Below, one piece after another: positions 10,276 through 27,712 of a stretch of 64,000 bases of DNA. The notes under the pieces were generated by a model. That model had not been told where the DNA came from, did no database searches, and worked only from the letters and a program-made list of their open reading frames with translations. Where the stretch lies: contig CANQBM010000005.1 in NCBI GenBank assembly GCA_947589575.1, positions 56,674-120,673 of the forward strand. Direction: 5' to 3'. Made by a program: the position numbers and the translations under genes. Every line of letters begins with the position of its first letter. The first letter of the stretch is position 1. This DNA is from an uncultured Clostridia bacterium (lineage in GTDB: Bacteria; Bacillota; Clostridia; Oscillospirales; Acutalibacteraceae).

Positions 10276-11784
10276 TTATTGTTTAAGTGTTATCCAGACT
10301 TCAGGTGTTAAATTTAAATTAGTTACAGATTTTTTAAAATCATTTAATGCGTCAAGCAAATGGAAAGATTTGAAATCCGAAAGTTTGTTCAAAGTTTTTC
10401 TGTTTGTCAACATCCACAAACAAACGTTTCGTCCGTTAAATACATTTTTACCTATCTCGCCTGCATTAGACAATCTTAACGATGTCGTAGCCTGTTTTAC
10501 CAAATAGACCAAATCTGCTTGTTGATGTTGGTCTTTTATCATTATAACATTTTCGTCATCTATAAGATCCGCTTTTTCGATGCAATACTTTCCACCAATA
10601 TATACATTATCTTTATGGAGTTGTGTATATTTCCCGCTTTCCACTAATGCGTCAATCAGTTCTGTTTCTGTTTGATTTGTTGATGGTTTAATTTTGTAAT
10701 TTATACTATCAACTTGTTCTTCGATGAATTTGACGTAAGACTCACTAAATTCAACCCATTCATTTTGAAAGAACACATAGTAACTTTCGTTTAGTTCTAT
10801 AGTAATTTGTAGTAATTCTTTCAGTTTTTTTACAAATAATACCTCATCATTTTCATCATAAAAAATAACTTTAATATCATTATAATTATTATTAATTTTG
10901 TCTTTGTTATTTAAAATTGTTTCACGAATATATTTCGCATCTAAAGTATCACTAATTTCAGACAAATCAGTTCTATAAACTTTAAGAGAATATCGATAAT
11001 CATTAGAAAAAGTAAAACTAACACCCGTCAGCCAATAATCACTAACATCTACTTCTGTAATAAAATCCAAGAAGTGTTTGTCTAATTCCTTGTTTAAGTC
11101 GGCCAATATATTTTTGTCAACGACTTTATGGTATCTCGGCAACCTAATTTTCGCCTGTGATTGTAATGCTTTTTCTATTTCATCGGTAAAACAATATAGT
11201 TCTGTAGGTTTTAATTTAAAAGATTTCCCAAATGAAAAACGTACTGATTCACCAAAGTCTACGGTTTTTCCCCACAAATCTTTATCAACCGTTTTACATT
11301 TAACGTAGCTAAACGCCTCGCCATAATCATGAGAATCATCCAATTTTTTATTTCGTATATATGAGGTTATGTCTTTCTTTCCAGCCGAAGTGAATGTTTG
11401 TGAATGTTTCATTTTCAAACCATTAGTATCAAGAATTCGTTCCGCAAGGTTCAGACCAAAATCTTTATCACAATATTTTCGGATAATAAAGTGTGTTTGT
11501 CCATAGGAAAGCACATATGAATATTCATCCCTTTGTATTAGGAAAAGACCTGAAACAGTTTCGTTTCCGATATTATCAGTATAACTTGTAAACTTGTCAT
11601 CTGATAACAATTGCTGATAATACCATACCCAACCCTTATTTTCAGAACGCTTTTTCCTTAAATACAAGGCAATATAACTATTTTCATCCTCATTATTTGC
11701 TTCACATATAAATCCATTATCTTTCAAATTTAGCGTTAAATCATTTACTTTTTCATTATCAATTTTAAAAACATTAATTTTCAT
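10276..11784 (-). CDS. DUF6119/TIGR04141-like sporadically distributed protein
   Basis: This 502-residue soluble protein begins MKINVFKID and ends with a domain containing KYCIEKADLIDDENVIMIKDQ and LSNAGEIGKNVFNGRN. That resembles the sporadically distributed TIGR04141 (DUF6119) family, which I recall turning up in mobile and restriction-rich regions; its activity is not known. The start follows AAGGAGCGAG. The gene is visibly A+T-rich and lies between direct repeats, both consistent with acquisition by transfer. It stands alone on this strand, so no operon partner helps. The family call is from memory of the motif pattern. Confidence 0.55.
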   Translation of the reverse strand: MKINVFKIDNEKVNDLTLNLKDNGFICEANNEDENSYIALYLRKKRSENKGWVWYYQQLLSDDKFTSYTDNIGNETVSGLFLIQRDEYSYVLSYGQTHFIIRKYCDKDFGLNLAERILDTNGLKMKHSQTFTSAGKKDITSYIRNKKLDDSHDYGEAFSYVKCKTVDKDLWGKTVDFGESVRFSFGKSFKLKPTELYCFTDEIEKALQSQAKIRLPRYHKVVDKNILADLNKELDKHFLDFITEVDVSDYWLTGVSFTFSNDYRYSLKVYRTDLSEISDTLDAKYIRETILNNKDKINNNYNDIKVIFYDENDEVLFVKKLKELLQITIELNESYYVFFQNEWVEFSESYVKFIEEQVDSINYKIKPSTNQTETELIDALVESGKYTQLHKDNVYIGGKYCIEKADLIDDENVIMIKDQHQQADLVYLVKQATTSLRLSNAGEIGKNVFNGRNVCLWMLTNRKTLNKLSDFKSFHLLDALNDFKKSVTNLNLTPEVWITLKQ

Positions 11785-12063: not shown

Positions 12064-13065
12064 ATGGAATTTAAGGATATACTGTTTAATTTAAGAAAAT
12101 CAAATAATTTAACACAGCATGAAATGGCGAAAAAACTGTTTGTCACAAGACAGGCGGTATCTCGCTGGGAGAATGGCGAAACTATTCCGAATGTTGATAC
12201 TCTAAAATTGATTTCAAATATTTTTGATGTTTCTATTAATTCACTCATAACCGATAACAAATTGAATGATATTCAGGATGACAAAATTAATTCAAATCGT
12301 TTTTTTGGATTTGCTCAGCTTTATGAAAACAGCAGACCAACAATTCCTGATTTTGCCTGTAATATAGTGTTAAACTATCTTGAGCAAAAACCTAATCAAA
12401 TTGTTGATTTGGGTTGCGGAACAGGATTGTCAACTACAGCTTGGAGTGGTAAATGCGATAACATAATTGGTATTGATCCGAACGAGAAAATGCTGTCAGT
12501 CGCAAAACAGAAAAGTAATAACATTTCATTTATCAAGGCTTATTCAGACAACACTGCTTTGCCTGAACATTCAGCAGATATTGTTATCTGCTCACAATCA
12601 TTTCATTGGATGAATCCTACCGATACTTTAAAAGAAGTGAATCGTATTCTTAAGCCAAATGGAGTGTTTGCAACGATAGACTGTGACTGGCCGCCTATGT
12701 GCAGTTTAGAGGCAGAATTAGCCTATTCTCAATTGCTCAATAAGGTTAGATTTATTGAACTTGAAGATAAAGATATTTTTAAAACTTTTCGGCGTTGGAA
12801 TAAGGACAAGCATTTGCAGAATATTAAGCAGAGCGGATATTTCAGATATTGCAGAGAAATTGTTTTTATGAACAACGAAAAATGCAATGCAGACAGATTT
12901 ATTGGCATTGCACTCAGTCAGGGCGGCTTGCAGACGATACTCAAAACACAGCCCGATTTAATTGAAAATGATATTGAATTGTTTGAGAAAAAGATAAAAT
13001 CAATTTATGGTAACAGCGAATTTGATATTAGTTTTTGTTATCGTATGCAGATTGGTATCAAGTAA
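12064..13065 (+). CDS. XRE helix-turn-helix protein fused to a class I SAM methyltransferase
   Basis: Residues 1-60 form an XRE-type DNA-binding domain (NLTQHEMAKKLFVTRQAVSRWENG). Residues from about 75 onward form a Methyltransf_11-type fold with the SAM-binding motif VDLGCGTGLST and the later IVICSQSFHWM and LKEVNRILKPNG. Such domains usually methylate small molecules. The pairing with a repressor domain suggests a regulator that senses or modifies a metabolite. RBS AGGTGATA precedes the ATG. It lies in the remnant element and diverges from the DUF6119-like gene. The substrate is unknown. Confidence 0.8.
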   Translation: MEFKDILFNLRKSNNLTQHEMAKKLFVTRQAVSRWENGETIPNVDTLKLISNIFDVSINSLITDNKLNDIQDDKINSNRFFGFAQLYENSRPTIPDFACNIVLNYLEQKPNQIVDLGCGTGLSTTAWSGKCDNIIGIDPNEKMLSVAKQKSNNISFIKAYSDNTALPEHSADIVICSQSFHWMNPTDTLKEVNRILKPNGVFATIDCDWPPMCSLEAELAYSQLLNKVRFIELEDKDIFKTFRRWNKDKHLQNIKQSGYFRYCREIVFMNNEKCNADRFIGIALSQGGLQTILKTQPDLIENDIELFEKKIKSIYGNSEFDISFCYRMQIGIK

Positions 13066-13281: not shown

Positions 13282-13498
13282 AATAGAGCCACAAAGCAAA
13301 AATAACCCCTGAAAAGTGCCTGTTTAAGCGCCTTTCAGGGATTTTTATTTCTATTCCCACTCCTAAGTACAAAACAGACTTTAACTGATTTTGCTTAGGA
13401 ATTTTGACTTGAAATGATTTAATTTGGTACAGATTATCTCAATTCTATGAGGTATTTCTGCTTTTGCTATCAAATAGCTATCACTTGGGGGCTATCAA
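13282..13498. repeat. Direct repeat, copy B (left end of the guaA element)
   Basis: This copy aligns with 10001-10217. It contains the intact core TATTCCCACTC (13352-13362) and three GCTATCA motifs in the same orientation (13466, 13477, 13491). The 14-mer TTTTGCTATCAAAT (13462-13475) is repeated exactly near guaA at 26114-26127. Confidence 0.75.
13352..13362. mobile_element. Putative left attachment core
   Basis: TATTCCCACTC is identical to the end of guaA at 26184-26194. The 12.83 kb between the two copies contains the integrase, a small DNA-binding protein and mobilisation genes. GCTATCA arm-like motifs lie about 100 bp inside the core. Confidence 0.6.
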
Positions 13499-13569: not shown

Positions 13570-15933
13570 TTAATTATAAGCTGATATTTCGCTTATCCAT
13601 TGTTCTATTATTTTTGCACTCTCTTTTAAATGACTATTTATATGGGATTTATTCAAAATATACATAAAACAAAGAATATCCTTTGCCGTTCTTTGTTTTT
13701 CTTCAGGTGATAAATTCTCATAAAAATCAGTCCTAGGAAAGAACCTTGCTGTATCTTGTCCATGACTTTCACCATTTAGTACAATTCTATACATCAAATT
13801 TTCAAAATAATCTTTTAATTCTGGTGTAGGCAATGAATCTAAAATATCTTGTTTTGTACTCAGTTCTTCGATTCCTATTTTAAAAGAAAAGGTCGAAAAT
13901 GCTTCTAAAACTCTTCTCATTTGGTTTCCTATAGAATTATTTTCATCTACACTATCAGAATTTGCATATTCAAAAATTTCTGTAAGCAAATCAGTATATT
14001 CGTTTTGCTTTTTATACATAAATTCATTGATTGATTTATTATGCAAATATAGCAACTTATATGTAGCCTTTTTCCCAATAGAATTACAATATTTAGATAT
14101 TTCTTCTAGTGCTTTGCTGAAGTCCATAAAAAACGATATATCGTGAGTCATAATTATTGCCTTTGTTGAATCTGAGCCTGATAATATACTTTTCATTTTA
14201 AATTTAAGAAAAGACATTATCCCAATTTTGTTTTCGTAATCAAAACTAGATAACGGATCATCGATAACTAAAAACATTTCATCAGAATATGGATTATCTG
14301 CGTTCATATTTTTTGCAATATCTGCAAAAAAATAACATAATGCCAACGCATTTCTTTCTCCACTTGAGATTTTATTTGGTTTTACAGATTTCCCATTAAC
14401 TTTTAATTTGTATCTCTTTTCTTTCTCGTCGACAGTTAACAATAACCTCTTTGAACTATAAAATATATATTGAAGTTCTCTGTTAAGACTGTCTGCAGCA
14501 AGTTGCAAGTTTTGTCTTTCAGCATTTAAATGTTGCAAATCCGTTCTTAATGCCGACAATTTATTTTTAGTTTCAGTTTGTCTACGTATTTCGGCTGATT
14601 TATCATTAACAGATTTATTATATTGCTTATAATCATCTTTAATATTATAATACGCAATTTGGTCGTTTAAATTGCTTAAAGCCTCTTTTAAACGATTTCT
14701 ATCCGAAATTGCATTATTATAGTTCAATCTACATTTTTCAATTTGTTCAATAACCTTATTGAGTTCTTCATAAACCGGAACAATGTTTTTAATTGTGTAT
14801 TCAGCTGATTCAAAGGGATTAGATATTTTCTCTCCGATACAAATGTTATGCTTTACTATCAATTCATTTAACTTATTAATAATAGTAATCAAATCCGAAT
14901 ACAAATGCTCTTCTAATACTTTAAAAACATCATAATCACTTATCGGTATTTCAACTAACAATAATTTTTCTAGTTCTTTCTTAAAGTTCTCAGATTCACG
15001 GCTTATTATATTTGTGATTTTGCTAACTATTTCATTTTTATGTTCAGTTGTTATTACTCTTAAACATTTAGGACAAATTTTGCCAACATTATTAGATATA
15101 TAGTCTTTTGCAGTAGTCAATTCATCAATACCAAATATATTTAATAGTTCAGATTCTCTATCTGTTAAAGCAGGTTTTCTGACAGTACGATGTAATGCTT
15201 CTTTGCTATCATCGAATATATTTTTATTATATGAAATTTTAGATATGCTTTGTGTAATTGGTAAGCTATTTGAATCTGTTGAATTCAAAATCTTTAGTTT
15301 ACTATTAAATTCAATTTGTAATTCATCTTTTTTTAACGAAGGCTTTAACTTGCCAATTCTATGAATAGTATCTTCGTTTACGGTAGCTTTTTTCAGTTTC
15401 CCGTTTATTTTAATCCCTTGAATTTCAGCCCAACTTTCTCGTAGCTTCTTTGAAATAGTAGAAAGCCAAAAGTCAGGGCTATTTGAATTTTTTGCATCAT
15501 TAAAAACCTTTATATTATTATCAATATCCTCTAATTGTTTAACAATTGCCTCGATATCTGTTTCTTTTTGTGTAATTTTTTCTTCTAGTCCAACTTGAGC
15601 ACCCAATAATACGATTGTATCTAACCCATCTTCTTTAAGCTTAACATTATTATTTATATATTCCTCATTAAAAACAAATATTTTTGAAGTTTTGCCATCT
15701 GGCGAAATATAAATTGCACCATCTTTTGTGATTAATTTTAAATCTATGTTTCTCGGATTTATCGAATTAACATATTCTATAAATCCTTGCGCTATGGTGC
15801 TTTTGCCACTTCCATTTCTACCAAATATCATAGCAATTCTATCATTCGTATTTTTAAATAATGTATATTCATTATTGCCGCTAAAGTATTCTGAAGTGAT
15901 AGAAATACCTATAACATCGTTAAAAACCGACAT
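13570..15933 (-). CDS. AAA_13-type ATPase resembling RloC/PrrC anticodon nucleases
   Basis: This 787-residue protein has an SMC/Rad50-like ATPase split by a coiled coil: Walker A GRNGSGKST (38-46), signature SSGER (523-527), Walker B FLVIDDP (554-560) and H-loop MTHD (595-598). CPKC at 287-290 in the middle matches a zinc-hook, as in RloC. After the ATPase, R673-x3-E677 and H724 (in NGESHG) recall the Arg-x3-Glu...His catalytic set of PrrC/RloC tRNA nucleases, though the spacing to the His is longer than in PrrC. It follows the AlwI-type nuclease gene by 32 bases. The nuclease role is inferred; an SMC-like defence ATPase without tRNase activity is the alternative. Confidence 0.75.
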   Translation of the reverse strand: MSVFNDVIGISITSEYFSGNNEYTLFKNTNDRIAMIFGRNGSGKSTIAQGFIEYVNSINPRNIDLKLITKDGAIYISPDGKTSKIFVFNEEYINNNVKLKEDGLDTIVLLGAQVGLEEKITQKETDIEAIVKQLEDIDNNIKVFNDAKNSNSPDFWLSTISKKLRESWAEIQGIKINGKLKKATVNEDTIHRIGKLKPSLKKDELQIEFNSKLKILNSTDSNSLPITQSISKISYNKNIFDDSKEALHRTVRKPALTDRESELLNIFGIDELTTAKDYISNNVGKICPKCLRVITTEHKNEIVSKITNIISRESENFKKELEKLLLVEIPISDYDVFKVLEEHLYSDLITIINKLNELIVKHNICIGEKISNPFESAEYTIKNIVPVYEELNKVIEQIEKCRLNYNNAISDRNRLKEALSNLNDQIAYYNIKDDYKQYNKSVNDKSAEIRRQTETKNKLSALRTDLQHLNAERQNLQLAADSLNRELQYIFYSSKRLLLTVDEKEKRYKLKVNGKSVKPNKISSGERNALALCYFFADIAKNMNADNPYSDEMFLVIDDPLSSFDYENKIGIMSFLKFKMKSILSGSDSTKAIIMTHDISFFMDFSKALEEISKYCNSIGKKATYKLLYLHNKSINEFMYKKQNEYTDLLTEIFEYANSDSVDENNSIGNQMRRVLEAFSTFSFKIGIEELSTKQDILDSLPTPELKDYFENLMYRIVLNGESHGQDTARFFPRTDFYENLSPEEKQRTAKDILCFMYILNKSHINSHLKESAKIIEQWISEISAYN

Positions 15934-15965
15934 GTTATTTATCCCTCTTTATCATCATTAAAAAT

Positions 15966-17936
15966 TCATATGTTATTTACAATAATATTTTCGTACCACA
16001 AATGAGGAGGCAAAACCGAATTATATGCTTCCTCAAACAATGGATACAATTCTTTATATGTTTTGCCATTAGACACGATTTTCTTTAATTCCGATGTTTG
16101 CAAAGGAATAATTTTCATTCCGTTTACAGACTTTGAATAATCTTGCGGATCGTAAAACGGAGTTGTCTTTCTGCTACGAAAGTCGGAAATTACATTTATG
16201 TTAAGATAATTTGTAGCAAACACACAATACGAATTCAAATTACCCGTACGTATCAAATGCATACCTAAATGTCTTGATACCGGCTCCATTTCCATTCTGC
16301 GCTGATTTGTACTGTCAGCAAGAGTTGCTTCAAGCAAAAGTGTGTGCTCCGGATAACAATCAGTAGCTTCATATTCGTAAACTATATCAGCTTCGCCGCC
16401 TGCTGCGTGAGTTTTTGGCAATAAATCGGCGTCAAGTGAAAGTTTCATATAGTCCAGAATTTTGCCGTGTCGCTCGCTTGTTTTATACCATAAGATACCA
16501 AGCACATATTCAAATATAGTTGGTACATCGGCGTTGTCGGTAACCATACTCCTGATTTCGTCATCATTTCTGCTTTCAAAGCAATCCAAAAGCGACAATA
16601 TCTTGTCATCGGTAAATTTAGTATCAATAAGGTGCTGCAATCTTTGATAACGTGTATCTTCAAGAGCAGCATGTGCAGATTGCATATCGGAAACATTTAT
16701 TCCTAGTTCTTCGTTAATTCCGGCAACAATAGCACTATCATCAACTACAAGACAATCGGATATTTCAACCATATCACAGTTTTCATACAACAACTCAGAA
16801 ACAGTAAATGTGTCTTTATATAATTCTTCTGATTTCGTTTTGAAGAAATGCTTCGGAACAATATCAAACTTTATCGTATCATCTTCAAACAAAACAATAT
16901 CTGTCGTTTTAATATATCTTCGATTGAGATCAAGATAATCCAAAAGTGTAGCCTTTGCTTTAAACAAATGCATTATTTTGAAAAATGCAACTCTAAAAGC
17001 GGTTTCACTGTCAACTTCGCTGAATAGTGTAGTTTTCAAATGAGCCGCAGGATGATTACTAATGGATTTTTCAGATGTAGTGTCAAATAAATAATTACGC
17101 CACCATTTGCCTATTTTTATATCTCTGGTTGCACTGTAAACAGAAATCAAGCTATCAACATCATTCAACACAAAGACTTTATACAGAGCTTGATATAACT
17201 TGAGATATGGTTTGTCATACTGTCGACTTTTTCTGTTGAGACCTATTTCACATACTAATTCTTCTGTAACTTCGTTTTCTAAAAAATAGTCTAATGCCGT
17301 TTTGTAGTTAGACATTCCTATCAATCGGTTTATAATAATTTGATCAATAGATGTAGCATTAGAACGCAATCGTGAAATACCGCTAATGATTTCAGCTGTT
17401 TCATTTTCTCCTATACATAGCGGCAAAAGATATGTATACTCATCAAGTGTTAAGTAATCAAACTTGCTAAGTAAATGCAACAACACCAAAAAAGGACGAA
17501 CGATACGACCGTTAATAGTGTAATATGTTTTCAAAAGCTGTTTAAGATATATAAAACTATCCTTATCTATTTGAAACTGATTGTCAGAAGAAAAATCATT
17601 TTCAGTACTTATTTTAAGCAACGCCTTTCCGACATCACTCAATTTTCTTCCGTCATCAATCAAACCAATATCAACTAACCCTGATGTTTTTTCACGAGCG
17701 TCCTTTGGTTTGTTCCCGGCTTCACCTTCGACAAACCCTTTCGTTTTCATAAAATCGTAATAACGAGTTTGCAACTCTTTGTTCCCCGACCAACTTTGGC
17801 CTTTGTTCTCTTCGAGCGTCCAAAACTCATCTAACAGAGCAAGTTGTTCTTCAATGGTTTTATTAAAGTTTTTTGTTCTGAAACTGGTGGTTCCCAAACT
17901 CCAACAAAAACTTTTATATGGAATTACATTTGGCAT
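15966..17936 (-). CDS. AlwI-family type IIS restriction endonuclease
   Basis: This 656-residue protein opens with PYKSFCWSLGTTSFRTKNF, a hallmark of the AlwI family. It has a late catalytic region GGEADIVYEY (513-522) followed by LLLEATLAD (533-541), Q545 and E549, as expected for the PD-(D/E)xK-like site of that family. AlwI recognises GGATC and cuts outside the site. This protein may recognise the same or a related asymmetric sequence, which is inference. Two adenine methylases lie directly upstream, as an asymmetric site requires. The ATG follows GAGGGGAATACGGCT. Confidence 0.85.
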   Translation of the reverse strand: MPNVIPYKSFCWSLGTTSFRTKNFNKTIEEQLALLDEFWTLEENKGQSWSGNKELQTRYYDFMKTKGFVEGEAGNKPKDAREKTSGLVDIGLIDDGRKLSDVGKALLKISTENDFSSDNQFQIDKDSFIYLKQLLKTYYTINGRIVRPFLVLLHLLSKFDYLTLDEYTYLLPLCIGENETAEIISGISRLRSNATSIDQIIINRLIGMSNYKTALDYFLENEVTEELVCEIGLNRKSRQYDKPYLKLYQALYKVFVLNDVDSLISVYSATRDIKIGKWWRNYLFDTTSEKSISNHPAAHLKTTLFSEVDSETAFRVAFFKIMHLFKAKATLLDYLDLNRRYIKTTDIVLFEDDTIKFDIVPKHFFKTKSEELYKDTFTVSELLYENCDMVEISDCLVVDDSAIVAGINEELGINVSDMQSAHAALEDTRYQRLQHLIDTKFTDDKILSLLDCFESRNDDEIRSMVTDNADVPTIFEYVLGILWYKTSERHGKILDYMKLSLDADLLPKTHAAGGEADIVYEYEATDCYPEHTLLLEATLADSTNQRRMEMEPVSRHLGMHLIRTGNLNSYCVFATNYLNINVISDFRSRKTTPFYDPQDYSKSVNGMKIIPLQTSELKKIVSNGKTYKELYPLFEEAYNSVLPPHLWYENIIVNNI

Positions 17937-17949
17937 AGCCGTATTCCCC

Positions 17950-18870
17950 TCAATAATTTATTATCAGCACCTCTTCCGAAGAAGAAGTTTTATCTTTTGT
18001 TTGATAATTTGAATTTGAATAGCTGTAATTAAGTCGTACAATCTTGTATCTGTCAGCATTTCTTTTAAGCCATTCAATTAATATGTCATTTTCCTTACCT
18101 TTGCTTCTCAGTACATTGGATAACGCAAATCGGATATTTTTTCTATTCAGATCATCTAAAAAGGCAAGTAAATCTTTTTCGGCAGTTTCATCCCAGCCAC
18201 CTTGCTCGTTATATGTAGCACAAGTAATTAAATATGGGGGATCTACATATACAAAATCTTGCGATGTTAGTGCGGATGTATCAAACTTTCTAAAGTCACA
18301 GCAGGTAAAAATGCAGTTTTGCTCTTGAATTCTGTCAATAAAATCAACAAGCTTTTGCTCCATTTTCTTATTGAAATCCCTTTTACCGACCGGTAAATTG
18401 AATTCACCGTTAGAGTTAAATCTAATTTGATTATTAAAAGCATATACGATTATCACATAAAGCATAACATAGTAGTAATAATCAAAATTACCATTTGCGT
18501 GTTTATGATTAAAATCCGCACGCAGTTTCAAATAGCCTTCTCTGTTATAATCTCCAAGTCCTTTGCTGCTTTCACAATAGTAATAATCATAGCCGTTTTT
18601 ACTTACAAGGGATAAGCCATATTTTTCTATAATTTCATAAATCCATTCCAAAACAGATTCTTTATCAAGGTTTTTGAAAGTATTATATAAATACAGCAAG
18701 TTTTCATTCAAATCATTATATATAACTCGGTTGCAATCAATATTGATACCGACATTACAGCCACCGCAGAACAAGTCGACAAATACATCTATATCTTTAG
18801 GGAATAGCGGCAATATTTGAGGTAACAACTTATACTTGCCACCGGTATAATTAAGCGGTGATTGTATCAT
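17950..18870 (-). CDS. D12-class adenine-N6 DNA methyltransferase
   Basis: This 306-residue Dam-like enzyme has the SAM-binding VDLFCGGCNVG (31-41) and the catalytic DPPY (210-213). It transfers a methyl group to N6 of adenine in DNA and here is expected to protect one strand of the recognition site of the neighbouring nuclease. The ATG follows GAGGAGTAAATCAAT, and the ribosome site overlaps the end of the other methylase gene. The gap to the nuclease gene is only 13 bases, so they share one transcript. Confidence 0.9.
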   Translation of the reverse strand: MIQSPLNYTGGKYKLLPQILPLFPKDIDVFVDLFCGGCNVGINIDCNRVIYNDLNENLLYLYNTFKNLDKESVLEWIYEIIEKYGLSLVSKNGYDYYYCESSKGLGDYNREGYLKLRADFNHKHANGNFDYYYYVMLYVIIVYAFNNQIRFNSNGEFNLPVGKRDFNKKMEQKLVDFIDRIQEQNCIFTCCDFRKFDTSALTSQDFVYVDPPYLITCATYNEQGGWDETAEKDLLAFLDDLNRKNIRFALSNVLRSKGKENDILIEWLKRNADRYKIVRLNYSYSNSNYQTKDKTSSSEEVLIINY

Positions 18871-18876
18871 ATTGAT

Positions 18877-19917
18877 TTACTCCTCATCAAAGCAAATACA
18901 CAAAAATAATCTTTCGGCGTTTTCCGGTATGTCTGATTTTCCGGTTGTAAACGCTTTGTAGCTTTCCTCAAAAACCTTTACAGTGCCTTTTCGACTAAGT
19001 ATTCTCATAATGTCATCATCGGAAATTTTGGCATTAGAACGGCAGTTGCCTTTTTCAGCCATATTGTTATACGAAAGCAAAATGTATCTAGCCTTTATAT
19101 CATTTATAAGTGTTTCAAATGCTTTTGTTGCTCCGATTGTACAATATTTACTCTTCATACCGCTTCTATCCATCTTTTTAGCCACACCGAAAACCTCGGG
19201 TTTCTCCCAACGTGCAACATTTTCCAGCAAATGATATGAGTCACAATATTGTCTTGAATTATACGGCGGGTCTATATAAACAAGGTCAGCCTCTATTCTC
19301 TTAACAAGATTATTAGCATCCTCATTAAAGCATTGATTTTTCGGATTATTTTTACCCTCTGCCAGAGGAACATAAAGTTCTAATGAGCCCTCAAATTTTG
19401 CGCCTTTTCTGTATGCATCATAATGTCCGCAGGTTACAGCAATTTTATCCATTGCATATAGCAATGATGTAATTAAAATTGCTCTTTCTCGCTTGTTTAA
19501 ATTTCCTTTTTTATAATTTCTTTCTATATCCTCACGAACATATCCTATTTTTGCACAATCTTTTTTACTAAAATAGGTATCGGCAAAATTGCGTGTCATA
19601 TAATTTTCACCGCAATTTGTTTTTGCATTGTACCTAACAACATAATCAATTATTTTTTGTTGGTCATAGCTTTCAGCGCCAAACCACGCATAATTGCAAA
19701 TATAATTACTATACATCAAGTCATTAGTAATAAGTACCTTATCTGCAAAAGCAGAGGAAACAGCACCGGTTCCTGCAAAAATATCCGCAACTGTTTCGAT
19801 GTCAGCACATTCTTCGTTTACAACACCGGTAATAAATGAAAGCAACTTATATTTATTACCTAAGTAACGTCTATTATTAATCAATGAGGTTTTATATGTC
19901 TTTTCAGCTACACTCAT
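18877..19917 (-). CDS. D12-class adenine-N6 DNA methyltransferase, second strand
   Basis: This 346-residue methylase has the SAM motif VADIFAGTGAVSSAF (43-57) and the catalytic DPPY within YIDPPYNSRQY (214-224). The start is placed at 19917, where GGAGGAGTTGCA precedes the ATG; the longer frame has no such site. The sequence differs clearly from the methylase at 17950, so the two are not a simple duplication and probably methylate opposite strands of one asymmetric site. The gap to the next gene is 6 bases. Confidence 0.9.
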   Translation of the reverse strand: MSVAEKTYKTSLINNRRYLGNKYKLLSFITGVVNEECADIETVADIFAGTGAVSSAFADKVLITNDLMYSNYICNYAWFGAESYDQQKIIDYVVRYNAKTNCGENYMTRNFADTYFSKKDCAKIGYVREDIERNYKKGNLNKRERAILITSLLYAMDKIAVTCGHYDAYRKGAKFEGSLELYVPLAEGKNNPKNQCFNEDANNLVKRIEADLVYIDPPYNSRQYCDSYHLLENVARWEKPEVFGVAKKMDRSGMKSKYCTIGATKAFETLINDIKARYILLSYNNMAEKGNCRSNAKISDDDIMRILSRKGTVKVFEESYKAFTTGKSDIPENAERLFLCICFDEE

Positions 19918-19985
19918 TGCAACTCCTCCGACAATCATTCTAACTTTACTATACAAAACATTCCGTCCGGTAAACCGGACTCAGA

Positions 19986-20192
19986 TTAAATATCTTTAAA
20001 CAACTCAGAAAGCGATATTTCCAAACCGTTCGCTATTTTTTCGATGTTAACAATAGAAATGTTTCGTTTTCCAAGCTCAACACTTGCAAAATACGTTCTG
20101 TCCATACCTATTTTTTGAGCAAATTTTTCTTGACTTAATCCTGTTTGGGTTCTCAGTTCACGTATTCTATTTCCAATTTTAGCTGTAATCAT
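19986..20192 (-). CDS. Small XRE regulator, probable controller (C) protein of the restriction operon
   Basis: The 68-residue protein is a single XRE helix-turn-helix domain (LSQEKFAQKIGMDRTYFASVELGKRNIS), the size and pattern of C proteins that time methylase before nuclease expression. It is the first gene of the operon, 68 bases upstream of the first methylase. The ATG follows AGAGGTTGCAAT. It might act on its own promoter at 20240-20268, but no clean C-box was identified. Confidence 0.8.
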   Translation of the reverse strand: MITAKIGNRIRELRTQTGLSQEKFAQKIGMDRTYFASVELGKRNISIVNIEKIANGLEISLSELFKDI

Positions 20193-20239: not shown

Positions 20240-20268
20240 TTTTAAGTATATATTAAATCCGTAAATAA
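20240..20268 (-). promoter_or_regulatory. Promoter of the restriction operon
   Basis: TTGACT and TATACT lie on the minus strand with a 17-base spacer. The leader of roughly 45 bases holds GTAAACTGCGATATTTATAC, an imperfect inverted repeat that could be a controller site. Coordinates are accurate to a few bases. Confidence 0.65.
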
Positions 20269-20300
20269 GTCAACTGTTTTTAAGCAACAGCCAGCAAATA

Positions 20301-20332: not shown

Positions 20333-20713
20333 TTATACTGTGTAAATCAATTCTGAATTTACAATTTCCGTTGCACAGTTACGGATATTGTTCATCTTTT
20401 GTACCCACAGCATTTGGTCGGCTGCTTTGAGTTCTTCGGTTACATTTTCTTTTTCGGCGAGTTCTTTTACCAGCCGGAGAAACATAGTGGTTGCCTGTTG
20501 TTCAATGTCATCGAGGTACTCAACAAGCTTTCCCGAAGTCATCAGATTAGCATATAAAACACGATGATTTTCTTTCAAAAACCGTTTACGCCTCATACCC
20601 CATACGCCGATATTTGCTTGCTTTTCTTCTTCGGGCAGTTTCAAATTGGGGAGATAATAATCCCCAACCCGTGTGTAAGTGCCGCCCATTTGTTCAAAAA
20701 TCGTCTTTGCCAT
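20333..20713 (-). CDS. TnpV-type transposon protein
   Basis: The 126-residue protein begins MAKTIFEQMGGTY and contains LPNLKLPEEE and WGMRRKRFLKENHRVLYANL, typical of the transposon-encoded TnpV family found on clostridial mobile elements. Its biochemical role is unknown. The ATG follows AGGAAAACAA. It lies 9 bases after the relaxase gene and is probably cotranscribed with it. Confidence 0.75.
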   Translation of the reverse strand: MAKTIFEQMGGTYTRVGDYYLPNLKLPEEEKQANIGVWGMRRKRFLKENHRVLYANLMTSGKLVEYLDDIEQQATTMFLRLVKELAEKENVTEELKAADQMLWVQKMNNIRNCATEIVNSELIYTV

Positions 20714-20722
20714 TTTGTTTTC

Positions 20723-21925
20723 CTACCTTTCAAAATCATTATTTCTAATGCGCTTTGTGCGCTGATTAGACGGTTGTTTTGTGTGCTTTCGCTGTCGTTC
20801 TTGCTCCTTTGCCTGTGAGATCAGCGCATCGATTTGCTGACTCCCGAATACCTTGCGGAGCAATTTATAATCTTTATTTTCTGCACGAAGAGTAGTGTTT
20901 TCATCAGTCAAACGGTCGTTGATTTTGCTCAAACGCTCGTTCTCACGATAAAGGTTTGCGTTGGTATTATTAAGTCGGTGATAGCTGTCAAGAGCGTGAT
21001 AATAACGGTAGAAGACCTCTTTTATGACCTCTTTCAGCTTCTTTACCAATGGGTCAACAAACTTTTGCTTGTATGACTTTGCCGACATCAATGCAGGAGG
21101 ATCGGGTAGCTGAAATTCGCTGTCTGTTTCAATGCGTTTTTCCAATTCTTCAATAACCTGTGTACCGTTATCGTAATTTTGAATACGTCTTTGCACCGTT
21201 TGAAACTCGTCTTTTTTCTCTGCAAGTTTATCTTCAAGAGCATCAAGTTCTTTCTCTCGTTCCTGCTTTTTATAGTCAAGAACAGACAAATGTTTTTCGT
21301 GATTGCCCTTGTGTTCCCACTCAATTCCGTGGCGTTCCATAACAAACGCAAGTGCAGATTTTTCTGCACTGACCCACTGATTCCACTCGGTATCTCCACG
21401 GGTTCCGCCCTTAAATCCTTGTGCAGCAAGCGCCTGTTTTAGAGATACTCTTGTTTCAAGTCCACGTTTGCTTCCAGTGGTGAACGGAACAAAATCAATG
21501 TGCAAATGGGGTGTTGCTTCATCCATATGAAGATGAGCTGAGAACACTTTTAACTGATGATTTCTTTCCTGAAACCCACGGTAATACTCATCTAAAATTT
21601 GTCTTGCAAGCTCTCCGTTTTCACTCTCAGCGCTCATATTTTCCTTATCGCCAATCTGTAAAATCAGTTCGTGAAATGGTTTTTCCTGTTTGGAATTTCT
21701 GATTTTCTCATAATAATTTTCTATTCTGCGGTCGGCTCTTGTCTGTTTATTGTTGTACCTTTTAAGTGCTTCGTCAAACAATTTGTGATAGACTTTCTTG
21801 ATATTTTCATTGCAGTAGTCGATATTAAGATGTGTTCGGCTGCCGTCTACATTTTCCGCTTTGAACTTGCGGCTGTTGTGATTTACGGAGCCTTTACCGA
21901 CCATTGCACTTATTGTTCTTTGCAT
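20723..21925 (-). CDS. MobV-family relaxase (plasmid recombination/mobilisation protein)
   Basis: This 400-residue protein begins MQRTISAMVGKGSVNHNSR and carries the histidine-rich relaxase signature HMDEATPHLHIDFVP, followed by a long coiled-coil tail. Such proteins nick the origin of transfer and lead single-stranded DNA into a recipient when a conjugation machine is supplied by another element. The ATG at 21925 follows GGAGGTATATAAA; the in-frame TTG inside that site is rejected. The inverted-repeat region just upstream (21955-22090) is a good candidate for its target. Confidence 0.88.
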   Translation of the reverse strand: MQRTISAMVGKGSVNHNSRKFKAENVDGSRTHLNIDYCNENIKKVYHKLFDEALKRYNNKQTRADRRIENYYEKIRNSKQEKPFHELILQIGDKENMSAESENGELARQILDEYYRGFQERNHQLKVFSAHLHMDEATPHLHIDFVPFTTGSKRGLETRVSLKQALAAQGFKGGTRGDTEWNQWVSAEKSALAFVMERHGIEWEHKGNHEKHLSVLDYKKQEREKELDALEDKLAEKKDEFQTVQRRIQNYDNGTQVIEELEKRIETDSEFQLPDPPALMSAKSYKQKFVDPLVKKLKEVIKEVFYRYYHALDSYHRLNNTNANLYRENERLSKINDRLTDENTTLRAENKDYKLLRKVFGSQQIDALISQAKEQERQRKHTKQPSNQRTKRIRNNDFER

Positions 21926-21954
21926 TTTATATACCTCCAATCTCTAAAAATTGA

Positions 21955-22172: not shown

Positions 22173-23327
22173 TCACGCATCGTCACGCTGTTCCAACGCA
22201 AGACTAACCCTGCGCCCATCGTGACAGCGTTTGTTTTGATAACGGATTCCATACTCATTGAACAAACGCCCTGCATTGATATTCAGCTTCATCGTCAAAG
22301 CGTTTGCTTTTATATCAACGCCGAGAAAGTCTACAAGCTCTGTGGGAGTGCCTTGCCATTCTGAGTTTTCTCTTGCGATTTTATCAGCGATATTTTCAAG
22401 CAACGGATCAGGCGGCTGTTTCCATAGCTCTGTTTCTGTTTTCTTAAGCTCCCATACAAGCGTTTCGGGATTACGGTTCAGATAAATCTTTTGGTCGGGC
22501 TGGTCTCTGCCTGATACTTCAAGCGTGGCGGCGTTGCTTGTGCGCTTTTCTTTCCGAAGAATAAAACCGCCGTCTGCTGCGCCGAGCAATCCGTTAGTGC
22601 CTGAAATCATATCAAATTTATCATCGGCATTCTGCTTGCGTGTGTGGTGAACAAGCAGCAGACATATTCCGCTGCTGTCCGCAAACTTTTTGAGCCTTGT
22701 GATAATTTCATAATCGTTTGCATAGCTGTAATTATCTCCGCCTACCTCACGCACCTTTTGAAGCGTGTCTATGATAATCAGTTTTGTATCAGGGTGTTCA
22801 GCCATAAACTTTGTAAGCTGTTCATCGAGACCGTTTCCAAGCCGACCAGCTGAAACAGAAAAATGCAAATTATCTGTACTTTCCGTTCCAAACATTCGGT
22901 ACAGCCTTTCCTGCAATCTGTGATAATCATCTTCAAGAGCAAGGTACAGCACGGTTCCTTTTCGGACGGTATAATTCCAAAGCGGCATACCCGTGCTGAT
23001 ATGGTAAGCGAGCTGTGCCATAAGGAAACTTTTACCCAGCTTCGGCGCACCGGCAAAAATATATATGCCGGGGTAAAGCAAGCCGTCTATAAGCGGCGGC
23101 TTGCTTTGATACACGGTATCGTATAACTCGCTCATTGAAACGGTTTTCAGATAGGACGGATCCATTTGCCTAAGCATTTCTCTTTGCATTTCACGAAAAC
23201 TTTCGTCCAAATCCTTGATATTTTCATCGTAATCGGTTATACTATTGTCAGTACATTTTTGGATTGACTGCTCCGTATCTGCGCCAACAGATACATTCGG
23301 AGCGGTCTTTTCTTTTTTATCTATCAT
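22173..23327 (-). CDS. RepA-like AAA ATPase (replicative helicase type)
   Basis: This 384-residue protein has a RecA-fold AAA_25 domain. Walker A is AGAPKLGKS (residues 92-100), Walker B LIIIDTLQ, and a LLVHHTRK segment follows. It resembles RepA helicases of mobilizable elements that unwind DNA at their origin. The N-terminal 60 residues look disordered. Its ATG overlaps the stop of the gene upstream by four bases, so they are coupled. RBS GGAGGAATCAGA. Confidence 0.8.
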   Translation of the reverse strand: MIDKKEKTAPNVSVGADTEQSIQKCTDNSITDYDENIKDLDESFREMQREMLRQMDPSYLKTVSMSELYDTVYQSKPPLIDGLLYPGIYIFAGAPKLGKSFLMAQLAYHISTGMPLWNYTVRKGTVLYLALEDDYHRLQERLYRMFGTESTDNLHFSVSAGRLGNGLDEQLTKFMAEHPDTKLIIIDTLQKVREVGGDNYSYANDYEIITRLKKFADSSGICLLLVHHTRKQNADDKFDMISGTNGLLGAADGGFILRKEKRTSNAATLEVSGRDQPDQKIYLNRNPETLVWELKKTETELWKQPPDPLLENIADKIARENSEWQGTPTELVDFLGVDIKANALTMKLNINAGRLFNEYGIRYQNKRCHDGRRVSLALEQRDDA

Positions 23328-23650
23328 TCTGATTCCTCCTTTAATCCGCCGAGAATATCGGCTATCATTTCAATTACATCCAGCAAATCTTCATCAACCT
23401 CACCGCCAGCCTCAATGCGCTGTAATTCTGCAAGCACCTCGGCAAGTTGATTTCGCAAGGCCTTGAACACTCTCGGATTGCCCTGAACAATTACATTCCT
23501 GTTCATACATCTGCGGTAACAGTATTCCTGTTTCGGCAAGCCGGACAAAGCAACGGCTTTATTAAGAAGTTCATTTTCTTCCGGTGATACTCTAAAGCCT
23601 ACGGTTATATTTCTCCAACGGTTATGCTCGTCTCTGTTTTTTGCTGACAT
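23324..23650 (-). CDS. MobC-like ribbon-helix-helix relaxosome protein
   Basis: The 108-residue protein has an N-terminal ribbon-helix-helix stretch (ITVGFRVSPEENELLNKAVALSG) and a helical acidic C-terminus, as in MobC-type accessory proteins that bind oriT and aid the relaxase. The ATG at 23650 follows AAGGAGATTTTTAGG, lies one base after the integrase stop, and is preferred over the longer frame. It overlaps the RepA-like gene by four bases. Confidence 0.7.
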   Translation of the reverse strand: MSAKNRDEHNRWRNITVGFRVSPEENELLNKAVALSGLPKQEYCYRRCMNRNVIVQGNPRVFKALRNQLAEVLAELQRIEAGGEVDEDLLDVIEMIADILGGLKEESE

Positions 23651-23651
23651 C

Positions 23652-24731
23652 CTAAAAATCTCCTTTTCCCAAATCATCTAATTTATTTGCCATTTCGGTT
23701 TGCTTTGAGGGGAACAGGTGAGCATATCTGTAAGTAACCTCTATGCTTTCGTGTCCGAGCCTGTCCGCAATGGCTAATGCTGTAAATCCCATTTCTATTA
23801 AAAGCGAAACGTGCGAATGTCTTAAATCGTGTATTCTTATACGCTTGACGCCTGCTTCTTTTGCACCTCTGTCCATTTCGTGATGCATATAGCTCTTTGA
23901 AACGGGAAAAATTCTGTCGTTTTCTCCGGCACCGTAAAACATACCGAGATATTCCTGCATTTCTTCACAAAGGAATTTCGGCATTTTAATTGTGCGGTTG
24001 CTTTTCTTTGTCTTAGGCGTAGTGATAACATCTCTGCCTTTTAAACGCTGATACGATTTGTTAATCGTGACCGTTTCCGCTTTGAAGTCAAAATCTTTAG
24101 GCGTTAAGGCAAGCATTTCGCCCTCACGAATACCGCACCAATAAAGCATTTCAAAAGCGTAAAAAGAAATGGTTTTGTCCATCATTGCTTCGGAAAACTT
24201 CTTGTATTCTTCCAAAGTCCAGAATTGCATTTCTTTTCGTTCTTCCGTTCCCATATTGCCTGCGATTGCGGCAGGGTTCGATTTCAAGCCGTAATATCGT
24301 ACTGCGTGGTTAAACAGGGCGCTTAACTGATTATGAACGGTTTTCAGATAGGTCTGAGAATACTTCCTGCCGCTCTTATCGGTAAGTTCTCTGATTTCAT
24401 TCTGCCATTCGATGACATCCTTTGCCGTAATATCGCACAGTCTGCGCTTTGCAAAATACGGCAGAATTTTCTTTTGTATAATGCTTTCCTTTGTAAGCCA
24501 TGTGTTTTCTTTGAGTCTTGGCTTTATGTCTTTCTCATAAAGTTCTGCAAAACTTTCAAAGCTCATTGTCACATCGGCCTGCTTTTGCATCAAAAACTCT
24601 CGTTCCCATTCCTGTGCTTCTCGTTTTGTTGCGAACCCTCGCTTGAATTTCTGCTGTCGTTCGCCTTTCCAGTCTGTGTAACGAAACTGCACATACCAAG
24701 TTCCGTTCTTTTCATTCTTAAATGCCGCCAT
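23652..24731 (-). CDS. Tyrosine recombinase (integrase)
   Basis: This 359-residue integrase has the N-terminal arm-binding domain (WYVQFRYTDWKGERQQKFKR), a SAM-like core-binding domain and the catalytic domain with R202, H301, R304, H327 and Y336. It catalyses recombination between element and chromosome attachment sites. It lies close to the guaA junction, and GCTATCA direct repeats near both ends could be its arm sites. It is the second gene of the leftward mobilisation operon, with a two-base gap after the HTH gene. Confidence 0.92.
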   Translation of the reverse strand: MAAFKNEKNGTWYVQFRYTDWKGERQQKFKRGFATKREAQEWEREFLMQKQADVTMSFESFAELYEKDIKPRLKENTWLTKESIIQKKILPYFAKRRLCDITAKDVIEWQNEIRELTDKSGRKYSQTYLKTVHNQLSALFNHAVRYYGLKSNPAAIAGNMGTEERKEMQFWTLEEYKKFSEAMMDKTISFYAFEMLYWCGIREGEMLALTPKDFDFKAETVTINKSYQRLKGRDVITTPKTKKSNRTIKMPKFLCEEMQEYLGMFYGAGENDRIFPVSKSYMHHEMDRGAKEAGVKRIRIHDLRHSHVSLLIEMGFTALAIADRLGHESIEVTYRYAHLFPSKQTEMANKLDDLGKGDF

Positions 24732-26182: not shown

Positions 26183-27712
26183 TTATTCCCACTCGACTGT
26201 GCCAGGGGGTTTTGAGGTTATATCATATACCACTCTGTTTACGTGGCTGACCTCATTTGTTATTCTGTTTGACACCTTTGCAAGAATATCATATGGTATT
26301 TTTGCCCAATCGGCTGTCATAAAATCATCTGTTGTAACAGCTCTGATTGCTACAAGATGGTCATACGTTCTGTGATCACCCATAACGCCTACTGTCTTAA
26401 CGCACGGAAGCACGCAGAAGAACTGAGCGAGATTTTTTTCATATCCGTTTTTTGCCATCTCGTCACGGAGAACCCAGTCGGCATCCTGCAAAACCTTAAT
26501 CTTATCCGCGGTAATTTCACCTATTATTCTTACTCCGAGACCGGGACCTGGAAACGGCTGGCGCCATACAAGCTCTTTTGGGATACCGAGCATTTCACCT
26601 ACACGCCTTACCTCATCCTTAAACAAATCGCAGAGCGGTTCAATGACTCCGAGAAATTCAACATCCTCAGGAATTTTAACTCTGTTGTGGTGTGTTTTAA
26701 TAACGTCTGCGTCGCCCTTGCCCGACTCAATGCAGTCGGGATAAATAGTTCCCTGCGCAAAAAAGCCGAGCTCATCCTGCCGTCTGATTTCATTCCAGAA
26801 CACATTAAAAAATTCCGTTCCGATAATATGCCTCTTTTTTTCAGGATCAACAACACCTTTAAGCTTTTCAAGGAAAAGCTCACCGCAATTTATACGCAGG
26901 AAATTCATATCAAAAAGCGAGGTGAATGTCTTTTCAACAAAATCGCCTTCATCCTTACGCATAAGCCCTTGGTCAACAAAAACACAGGTAAGCTGTTTGC
27001 CGACAGCTCTTGAAAGCAGACCTGCGGCAACCGACGAATCAACACCGCCGGAAAGACCGAGTATAACCTTTTTATCGCCAATTTGTTCTCTGAGCTTAGC
27101 GACTGTATTGTCGATAAAATTATCCATTACCCAGTCGCCCGAACACCGGCAAATCTCATAAAGGAAATTATAGAGAATTTGTGAGCCGAACTGAGTGTGA
27201 GTAACCTCCGGATGAAACTGAACGGCATAAATATTTTTTTCGGTATTTTCCATAGCCGCGCAGGGACAATCGTTGGTTATTCCCGCAATTTCAAAGCCTT
27301 TTGGAGGGATTGAAATATAGTCCGTATGGCTCATCCATACAATAGATTTCTCATCTACACCGCTGAAAAGCTTTGATTTTTTATTATTAGTAAACTCAAT
27401 TTTCCCATACTCGCTGACTGGAGCGGTTTTCACTTCTCCGTCAGCCATCCACGCTATAAGCTGGCATCCGTAGCATATACCTAAAATCGGCACGCCTAAA
27501 TCAAGAATATCTTTAGCATAATGAGGAGAACTCATATCGTAAACGGAGTTAGGTCCGCCTGTAAAAATAATACCTTTATAACCATTATTTTTAATTATAT
27601 CAATAGATGTGGTATAAGGCAGAATTTCAGCGTAAACATGGTGGTCGCGTACCCGCCTTGCGATTAGCTGATTGTACTGACCGCCGAAGTCAAGAACAAG
27701 TATTTTTTCCAT
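26183..27712 (-). CDS. guaA: GMP synthase (glutamine-hydrolysing)
   Basis: This 509-residue enzyme converts XMP to GMP with ATP and glutamine. It has a class I glutamine amidotransferase domain with GICYGCQ and QFHPEVTHT, followed by the PP-loop ATPase domain with GLSGGVDSSV. The start follows GGGGAGGATACA. Its last 11 bp are the core at which the element at 13352-26194 inserted, and the stop codon TAA is intact. It has its own promoter. Confidence 0.97.
   Translation of the reverse strand: MEKILVLDFGGQYNQLIARRVRDHHVYAEILPYTTSIDIIKNNGYKGIIFTGGPNSVYDMSSPHYAKDILDLGVPILGICYGCQLIAWMADGEVKTAPVSEYGKIEFTNNKKSKLFSGVDEKSIVWMSHTDYISIPPKGFEIAGITNDCPCAAMENTEKNIYAVQFHPEVTHTQFGSQILYNFLYEICRCSGDWVMDNFIDNTVAKLREQIGDKKVILGLSGGVDSSVAAGLLSRAVGKQLTCVFVDQGLMRKDEGDFVEKTFTSLFDMNFLRINCGELFLEKLKGVVDPEKKRHIIGTEFFNVFWNEIRRQDELGFFAQGTIYPDCIESGKGDADVIKTHHNRVKIPEDVEFLGVIEPLCDLFKDEVRRVGEMLGIPKELVWRQPFPGPGLGVRIIGEITADKIKVLQDADWVLRDEMAKNGYEKNLAQFFCVLPCVKTVGVMGDHRTYDHLVAIRAVTTDDFMTADWAKIPYDILAKVSNRITNEVSHVNRVVYDITSKPPGTVEWE

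Follow-up and report, generated by a model that had tools for sequence, protein, structure and literature searches.

An RloC-like gene as the last gene of an AlwI-type restriction operon in an uncultured Clostridia bacterium

In a 64,000-nucleotide stretch of DNA from an uncultured Clostridia bacterium (GenBank assembly GCA_947589575.1, contig CANQBM010000005.1, positions 56,674 to 120,673; hereafter the window) a restriction-modification (R-M) operon of AlwI type ends in a gene for an RloC-like ATPase. The locus raises the question of what such a protein does behind a type IIS system. A first-pass annotation of the letters had proposed that it guards that system, acting when a phage blocks restriction. 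We think it somewhat probable that this member of the RloC family is instead a backup weapon, whose Rad50-like head would attach to the ends of broken DNA and thereby activate a predicted C-terminal RNase, upon which tRNA anticodons would be cut and translation would stop.

The operon and its RloC-like protein

The operon, with the motifs of its last gene, is laid out as follows (all on the minus strand):

13570..15933: RloC-like ABC ATPase and predicted HEPN-type RNase, 787 residues, last gene of the operon (Pfam AAA_13, 181.8 bits, cut-off 36)
15966..17936: AlwI-family type IIS restriction endonuclease, 656 residues (RE_AlwI, PF09491, 234.7 bits, cut-off 23.1)
17950..18870: D12 N6-adenine methylase 2, 306 residues (PF02086 and TIGR00571, both above cut-off)
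18877..19956: D12 N6-adenine methylase 1, 346 residues from ATG 19917 or 359 from TTG 19956 (PF02086; PADLOC MTase_II, 502 bits)
19965..19980: palindrome resembling a terminator or an operator, in the gap between C gene and methylase 1
19986..20192: C (control) protein, 68 residues, helix-turn-helix (HTH) (PADLOC Control_protein, 86.6 bits)
20245..20273: promoter-like site TTGACT-17-TATACT upstream of the C gene, of a kind for which chance matches are common
15799..15822: Walker A motif GRNGSGKS, residues 38-45
15064..15075: zinc-hook motif C287-P-K-C290
13915..13917: codon of R673
13903..13905: codon of E677
13762..13764: codon of H724

All five open reading frames (ORFs) were found at the positions and on the strand given by the first-pass annotation, with their families backed by Pfam, PADLOC and NCBIfam. 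Its gaps of 6, 13 and 32 bases stood, while the first gap measures the 68 bases it gave only if methylase 1 starts at ATG 19917, and 29 if it starts at TTG 19956. Both features of an AlwI-type R-M system, an RE_AlwI nuclease and two D12 adenine methylase genes, are present, two adenine methylases being what is expected for an asymmetric recognition site. The sequence AAAGAGGGA lies upstream of the ATG of the last gene, inside the 32-base gap to the AlwI gene. An operon scan found two terminator-like sites, against 2.6 in shuffles, one at 19980-19965 between the C gene and methylase 1 and the other within methylase 1; because the scan found none between the methylases, the AlwI gene and the last gene, the last four genes may plausibly be transcribed together. 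As a candidate C-box the palindrome at 19965-19980 was set aside, since it is not preserved in a 98.6% identical copy of the operon (L004, described below), and no similar palindrome was found upstream of methylase 1 at loci L006, L068 and L072.

Judged by sequence, the 13570-15933 product is an RloC in the published definition, so that of the RloC/PrrC-like identity first proposed the RloC side was borne out. Like the RloC proteins of Geobacillus kaustophilus and Acinetobacter baylyi, it has the motifs and fold of a Rad50-like ABC ATPase, a length within the RloC range (658-897 residues), a CxxC hook placed between Walker A and the ABC signature (residues 523-526) and flanked by helices in the model, and the nuclease triad R673-x3-E677-x46-H724 with Ser723 before the His, which fits the published R-x3-E-x36-52-H, where a Ser often precedes the His; the likeness is one of published motifs. 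It differs from them in that its partner is an AlwI-type (type IIS) operon, borne by an element that is likely mobilizable. PrrC-EcoprrI likewise combines an ABC ATPase with an R/E/H nuclease and is linked to R-M genes, but PrrC proteins have 341-416 residues, lack the hook insert and are tied to type Ic R-M (PMC2610378), the prrC gene being embedded in the hsd locus, whereas here the neighbours are AlwI-type and D12 genes. PARIS resembles our protein in the Rad50/SMC-like ATPase AriA, but its nuclease is AriB, a Toprim protein (PMC12409363), in place of a HEPN-type domain fused to the ATPase.

The hook cysteines and R673, E677 and H724 lie exactly where the first-pass annotation had placed them, with the caveat that the R/E/H set could be coincidental. 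For a single sequence such a pattern is not rare: in shuffles of the last 187 residues (n=20,000) R-x3-E-x36-52-H arose in 13.9%, and in 1.5% with Ser before the His. The query and all 103 homologs of 740-940 residues, however, share the triad, Ser723 and both hook cysteines without exception (110 were found, seven of which were removed by length; the set includes P0001, 99% identical and maybe the window's own protein), and because of this invariance we do not regard the set as coincidence. The predicted structure (pLDDT 83.7, pTM 0.50) has, C-terminal of the ATPase as the structure check proposed by the first-pass annotation had sought, an all-helical bundle with modest HEPN matches, a candidate HEPN-type RNase. 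Structural matches, which include AriA entries, are strong only for the Rad50-like part, as might be expected if the protein were an AAA_13-type ABC ATPase without RNase activity, e.g., one that tethers DNA ends; we consider such a protein very improbable, given that the triad and its Ser are invariant in the homologs and that replacing any of the three matching residues is reported to have abolished RloC activity (PMC2610378). Solved structures searched by sequence gave five weak matches (best E-value 0.02), and no entry titled RloC or PrrC was among the structure matches listed, which excludes nothing.

Neighbours of AlwI-type genes and of RloC-like genes

If the RloC-like protein belonged specifically to AlwI-type systems, the two genes should keep company elsewhere. 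RE_AlwI was found in 13 of 391 genomes of the class, and the stretch behind the gene was visible in ten of them, those of G106, G376 and G292 running off the contig. What follows AlwI varied: Hachiman HamA and a DEAD helicase, directly adjoining (G306, L071:3686-7160), a YobI-type ATPase (G245), a SIR2-like gene in a four-gene set (G341), an HTH-M78 protein (G016), a DUF6414 gene (G362), or a zinc-ribbon protein and a protein with no Pfam match (G370); the scan of tail contents covered all but the next ORFs of G331 and G243. With the window's AlwI protein as query, two of 315 genomes of the order matched at an E-value of 1e-30, the second being G449, which by sequence resemblance carries the same four-gene SIR2 set as G341 (L068:1928-5491 and L144:5367-8963). 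Across the 14 AlwI-type genomes of the two samples, 11 of them with a visible tail, the window's genome alone had an RloC-like neighbour. Among the 13 class genomes an AAA_13 match near the AlwI gene on the same contig was seen in that genome and in G138, which we set aside as its ATPase lacks the triad, its AlwI match is weak (E-value 8.8e-5) and Pfam calls the gene HNH_2. The G138 locus itself (L067:2824-8126) is a row of two C5 methylases, this HNH nuclease and the AAA_13-like ATPase. AAA_13 fragments in G376 are on a contig other than AlwI's and were not counted.

An AlwI-specific linkage of the RloC-like gene was thus rejected (1/14 AlwI genomes, 1/11 with the tail visible), and the consistent association of AAA_13 genes with AlwI-type nucleases for which the first-pass annotation had suggested looking did not hold. 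On sequence evidence AlwI operons have a variable tail, so the RloC-like gene is one occupant among several. A variable tail would also suit independent cargo, i.e., RloC-like and R-M genes sharing an element without acting on each other, in a slot behind AlwI that collects defence genes, as the HamA-helicase pair, the YobI-type ATPase and the SIR2 sets of G341 and G449 may illustrate, and the RloC-like gene does have a base composition of its own. We nevertheless hold mere cohabitation to be quite unlikely, since five of the eight close RloC-like relatives directly adjoin R-M genes, a count given without a background rate for adjacency.

These relatives came from a profile search in which strong members (>540 bits) occurred in eight genomes, i.e., at least 2 of 391 in the class, 6 of 394 in the order and 4 of 398 in the phylum sample (the samples overlap, and mostly two candidates were scored per genome); with weaker matches (E-value <1e-20) the tallies were at least 8/394 and 10/398 for order and phylum, and 87 genomes of the family held no additional member. 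The adjoining R-M genes were of four kinds. Besides the AlwI type IIS genes of the window's genome (G000), an Eco57I-type pair lies 45 bp upstream of the RloC-like gene in G142; hsdM-hsdS-hsdR lies 26 and 40 bp upstream in G702 and G586, respectively, the RloC-like gene being broken in G586; and mod-RhuM-res lies beside it in G775, with mod 4 bp downstream. No R-M gene was seen near the RloC-like genes of the other three, G496, G703 and G911, by Pfam on 6, 5 and 7 flanking ORFs and BLAST of the listed ORFs against the set's R-M references; G703 has a Uma2 gene ("putative restriction endonuclease") ~1.7 kb away. Directly downstream of the gene in G496 is one for a 749-residue protein (L119:6152-8401) with a match to PF05183, an RNA-dependent RNA polymerase family (1.7e-7).

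At the nine weaker loci surveyed, one was flanked on both sides by type I-like genes (G948) and three lay downstream of type III mod-res with a 440-residue gene intervening, their Res being ~70% identical to that of G775 (G897, G898, G971). A second locus of G703 is followed by a small ORF and, 0.2 kb away, a C5-methylase-like gene, with a C5 methylase and a type ISP gene coming next; in the remaining four (G604, G643, G1012, G1080) BLAST comparison with the R-M references found no R-M gene. The triad with its Ser-His was present in 9/9 full-length close proteins, the window's and two plasmid proteins included, and in 3/9 distant ones; the six distant proteins lacking it in such form include the three behind type III genes, and G643 was left out of this comparison. 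Closely related type III R-M genes (L134, L139-L141; Res ~70% identical) are accompanied by RloC-like or AAA_13 genes that belong to two different branches and stand on differing sides of the operon. A tree of 32 rows gave four changes, the minimum possible, a value equally low in 35 of 200 shuffles; its labelled rows were too few for a test, and it had long branches, including that of G142.

Because restriction genes of type I, II or III are found next to some of its relatives, the RloC-like gene looks like an interchangeable backup, and what stands of the proposed guarding linkage is a tie to R-M genes in general, without the AlwI partnership. A guard in the manner of PrrC would be silenced by contact with the AlwI-type nuclease or the methylases and freed by a phage anti-restriction factor. 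The gap of just 32 bases to the AlwI gene would suit such a partner, and the type Ic enzyme linked to PrrC does keep it silent until T4 Stp sets it free (PMC2610378). We find such a guard unlikely. Conserved contact with one R-M protein is hard to expect when the partners of the close subfamily vary or are absent, and in A. baylyi mutants deficient in R-M, breaks still activated RloC, with R-M control during infection not dismissed by the authors (PMC3874168).

The mobile element and related records

The operon lies within a 12.8-kb span between two copies of a direct repeat, together with mobility genes:

13352..13362 (no strand): left copy of direct repeat TATTCCCACTC, left end of the element
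26184..26194 (no strand): right copy of TATTCCCACTC, the last codons and 3' end of guaA (guaA, 26183-27712)
20333..20713, minus: TnpV-family gene (PF14198)
20723..21940, minus: relaxase, Mob_Pre family (PF01076)
22173..23327, minus: AAA_25 ATPase (PF13481)
23324..23677, minus: MbpA-like mobilization protein (NF041418, 25.6 bits, below the cut-off of 90)
23652..24731, minus: tyrosine integrase (XerA/XerC-type matches, below their cut-offs)

A contig of a Clostridia metagenome-assembled genome (L004, CANRKQ010000023.1, isolate name Lapin-020) matches 22056-13353 (8.7 kb) at 98.6% identity; the match terminates at the repeat, with differing DNA past it, and at its opposite end the L004 contig starts. 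The RloC-like frame of L004 is broken near residue 554, by decay or assembly. Because of the guaA-end repeats, the mobility genes and the L004 match stopping at the repeat, this stretch, which sits in the 3' end of guaA, most likely represents a mobilizable element that integrated there and carries the R-M operon as cargo. Another repeat, TTTTGCTATCAAA at 13462/26114, was set aside as the element end, as L004 homology ends at 13353 in the guaA-type repeat. Outside the element we noted an HTH-methyltransferase fusion at 12064-13065 and a DUF6119 protein at 10276-11784, within a 29% GC stretch.

A search of plasmid records for near matches to the element found none. Relatives of the AAA_13 protein occur in 143 plasmid records, all below 60% identity; at two plasmid loci (L002, L003) no R-M gene is directly adjacent, methylase and endonuclease genes lying ~4 kb off in L002. 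Phage records gave two weak matches. In viral contigs a single-sequence search found none and a profile search 38 distant matches; an AlwI search gave one match, on a contig that ends 0.4 kb behind AlwI.

DNA ends as the proposed signal

If the RloC-like protein is a backup weapon, the AlwI-type enzyme would cut unmodified phage DNA first, and the DNA ends that either this enzyme or the phage produces would arm the RloC-like nuclease in the same cell. Binding of broken ends by the Rad50-like head would activate the RNase domain predicted at the C-terminus; cleavage of tRNA anticodons by this domain would then halt translation, aborting the infection if restriction were insufficient. Loss of the methylases would arm the nuclease against the host and could help retain the element. 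The trigger would be a DNA end rather than the condition of a given R-M protein, and the changes of partner favour such a self-contained sensor over a guard of one R-M enzyme, since a DNA-end signal explains more easily than contact why the subfamily has four kinds of R-M neighbours and sometimes none.

RloC is described as having an internal switch that answers to DNA ends, with a double-strand break response also in R-M-deficient A. baylyi (PMC3874168), and 8 of 72 RloC specimens were at type I or III R-M loci, making the R-M link rare (PMC2610378). PrrC and PARIS count as R-M guardians in a 2025 review, which has RloC answering to breaks (PMC12707154); in contrast, a 2025 paper reports RloC triggered by inactivation of type I R-M (PMC12322248). 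The guarding first proposed for our locus is the PrrC model, and the RloC break response fits the swapping of partners better (PMC3874168).

A branch of RloC-like proteins with a C-terminal LexA-type Peptidase_S24 domain points the same way as a DNA-end signal. The fusion was present in 11 of 110 homologs and in the protein of G702, where the gene is the last of a type I operon:

LexA-fused members: L121:9981-12722 (G702), P0050, P0054, P0066, P0073, P0077, P0079, P0081, P0083, P0085, P0089, P0092

All 12 retain an Ala-Gly site, the serine of SG[DN]SM and a lysine, which we take to be the LexA cleavage residues. No fusion of RloC to a LexA-type domain was found in the literature searched.

Combinations already known are PrrC with type I, RloC with type I or III, and HEPN proteins with diverse R-M systems, and the toxin-like partners of R-M are named for types I and III (PMC3506569). 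The AlwI-family system of the window is itself of the usual make (RE_AlwI nuclease, two D12 methylases, C protein) but differs from the AlwI-type loci surveyed elsewhere, which have other genes behind the nuclease. In the abstracts and passages searched we found no operon joining RloC or PrrC to a type II system, and no RloC described behind an AlwI-type or Eco57I-type II operon. Here, one RloC-like subfamily follows type I genes and two kinds of type II genes and also occurs next to type III genes. We tentatively suggest that RloC-like nucleases may be a plug-in second stage of restriction, sensing the ends cut by whichever enzyme adjoins (type I, IIS, Eco57I-type II or III), restriction serving as the alarm and tRNA cutting as the response, and that the LexA-type autocleavage domain of the sister branch may tie the same nuclease to the DNA-damage signal of the cell.

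The choice between guard and sensor becomes testable, since a single laboratory host could carry related nucleases next to differing R-M partners for comparison. To our knowledge abortive translation arrest has not been credited to type II systems; should the RloC-like protein respond to DNA ends, routine cutting by a type II enzyme could set off such arrest.
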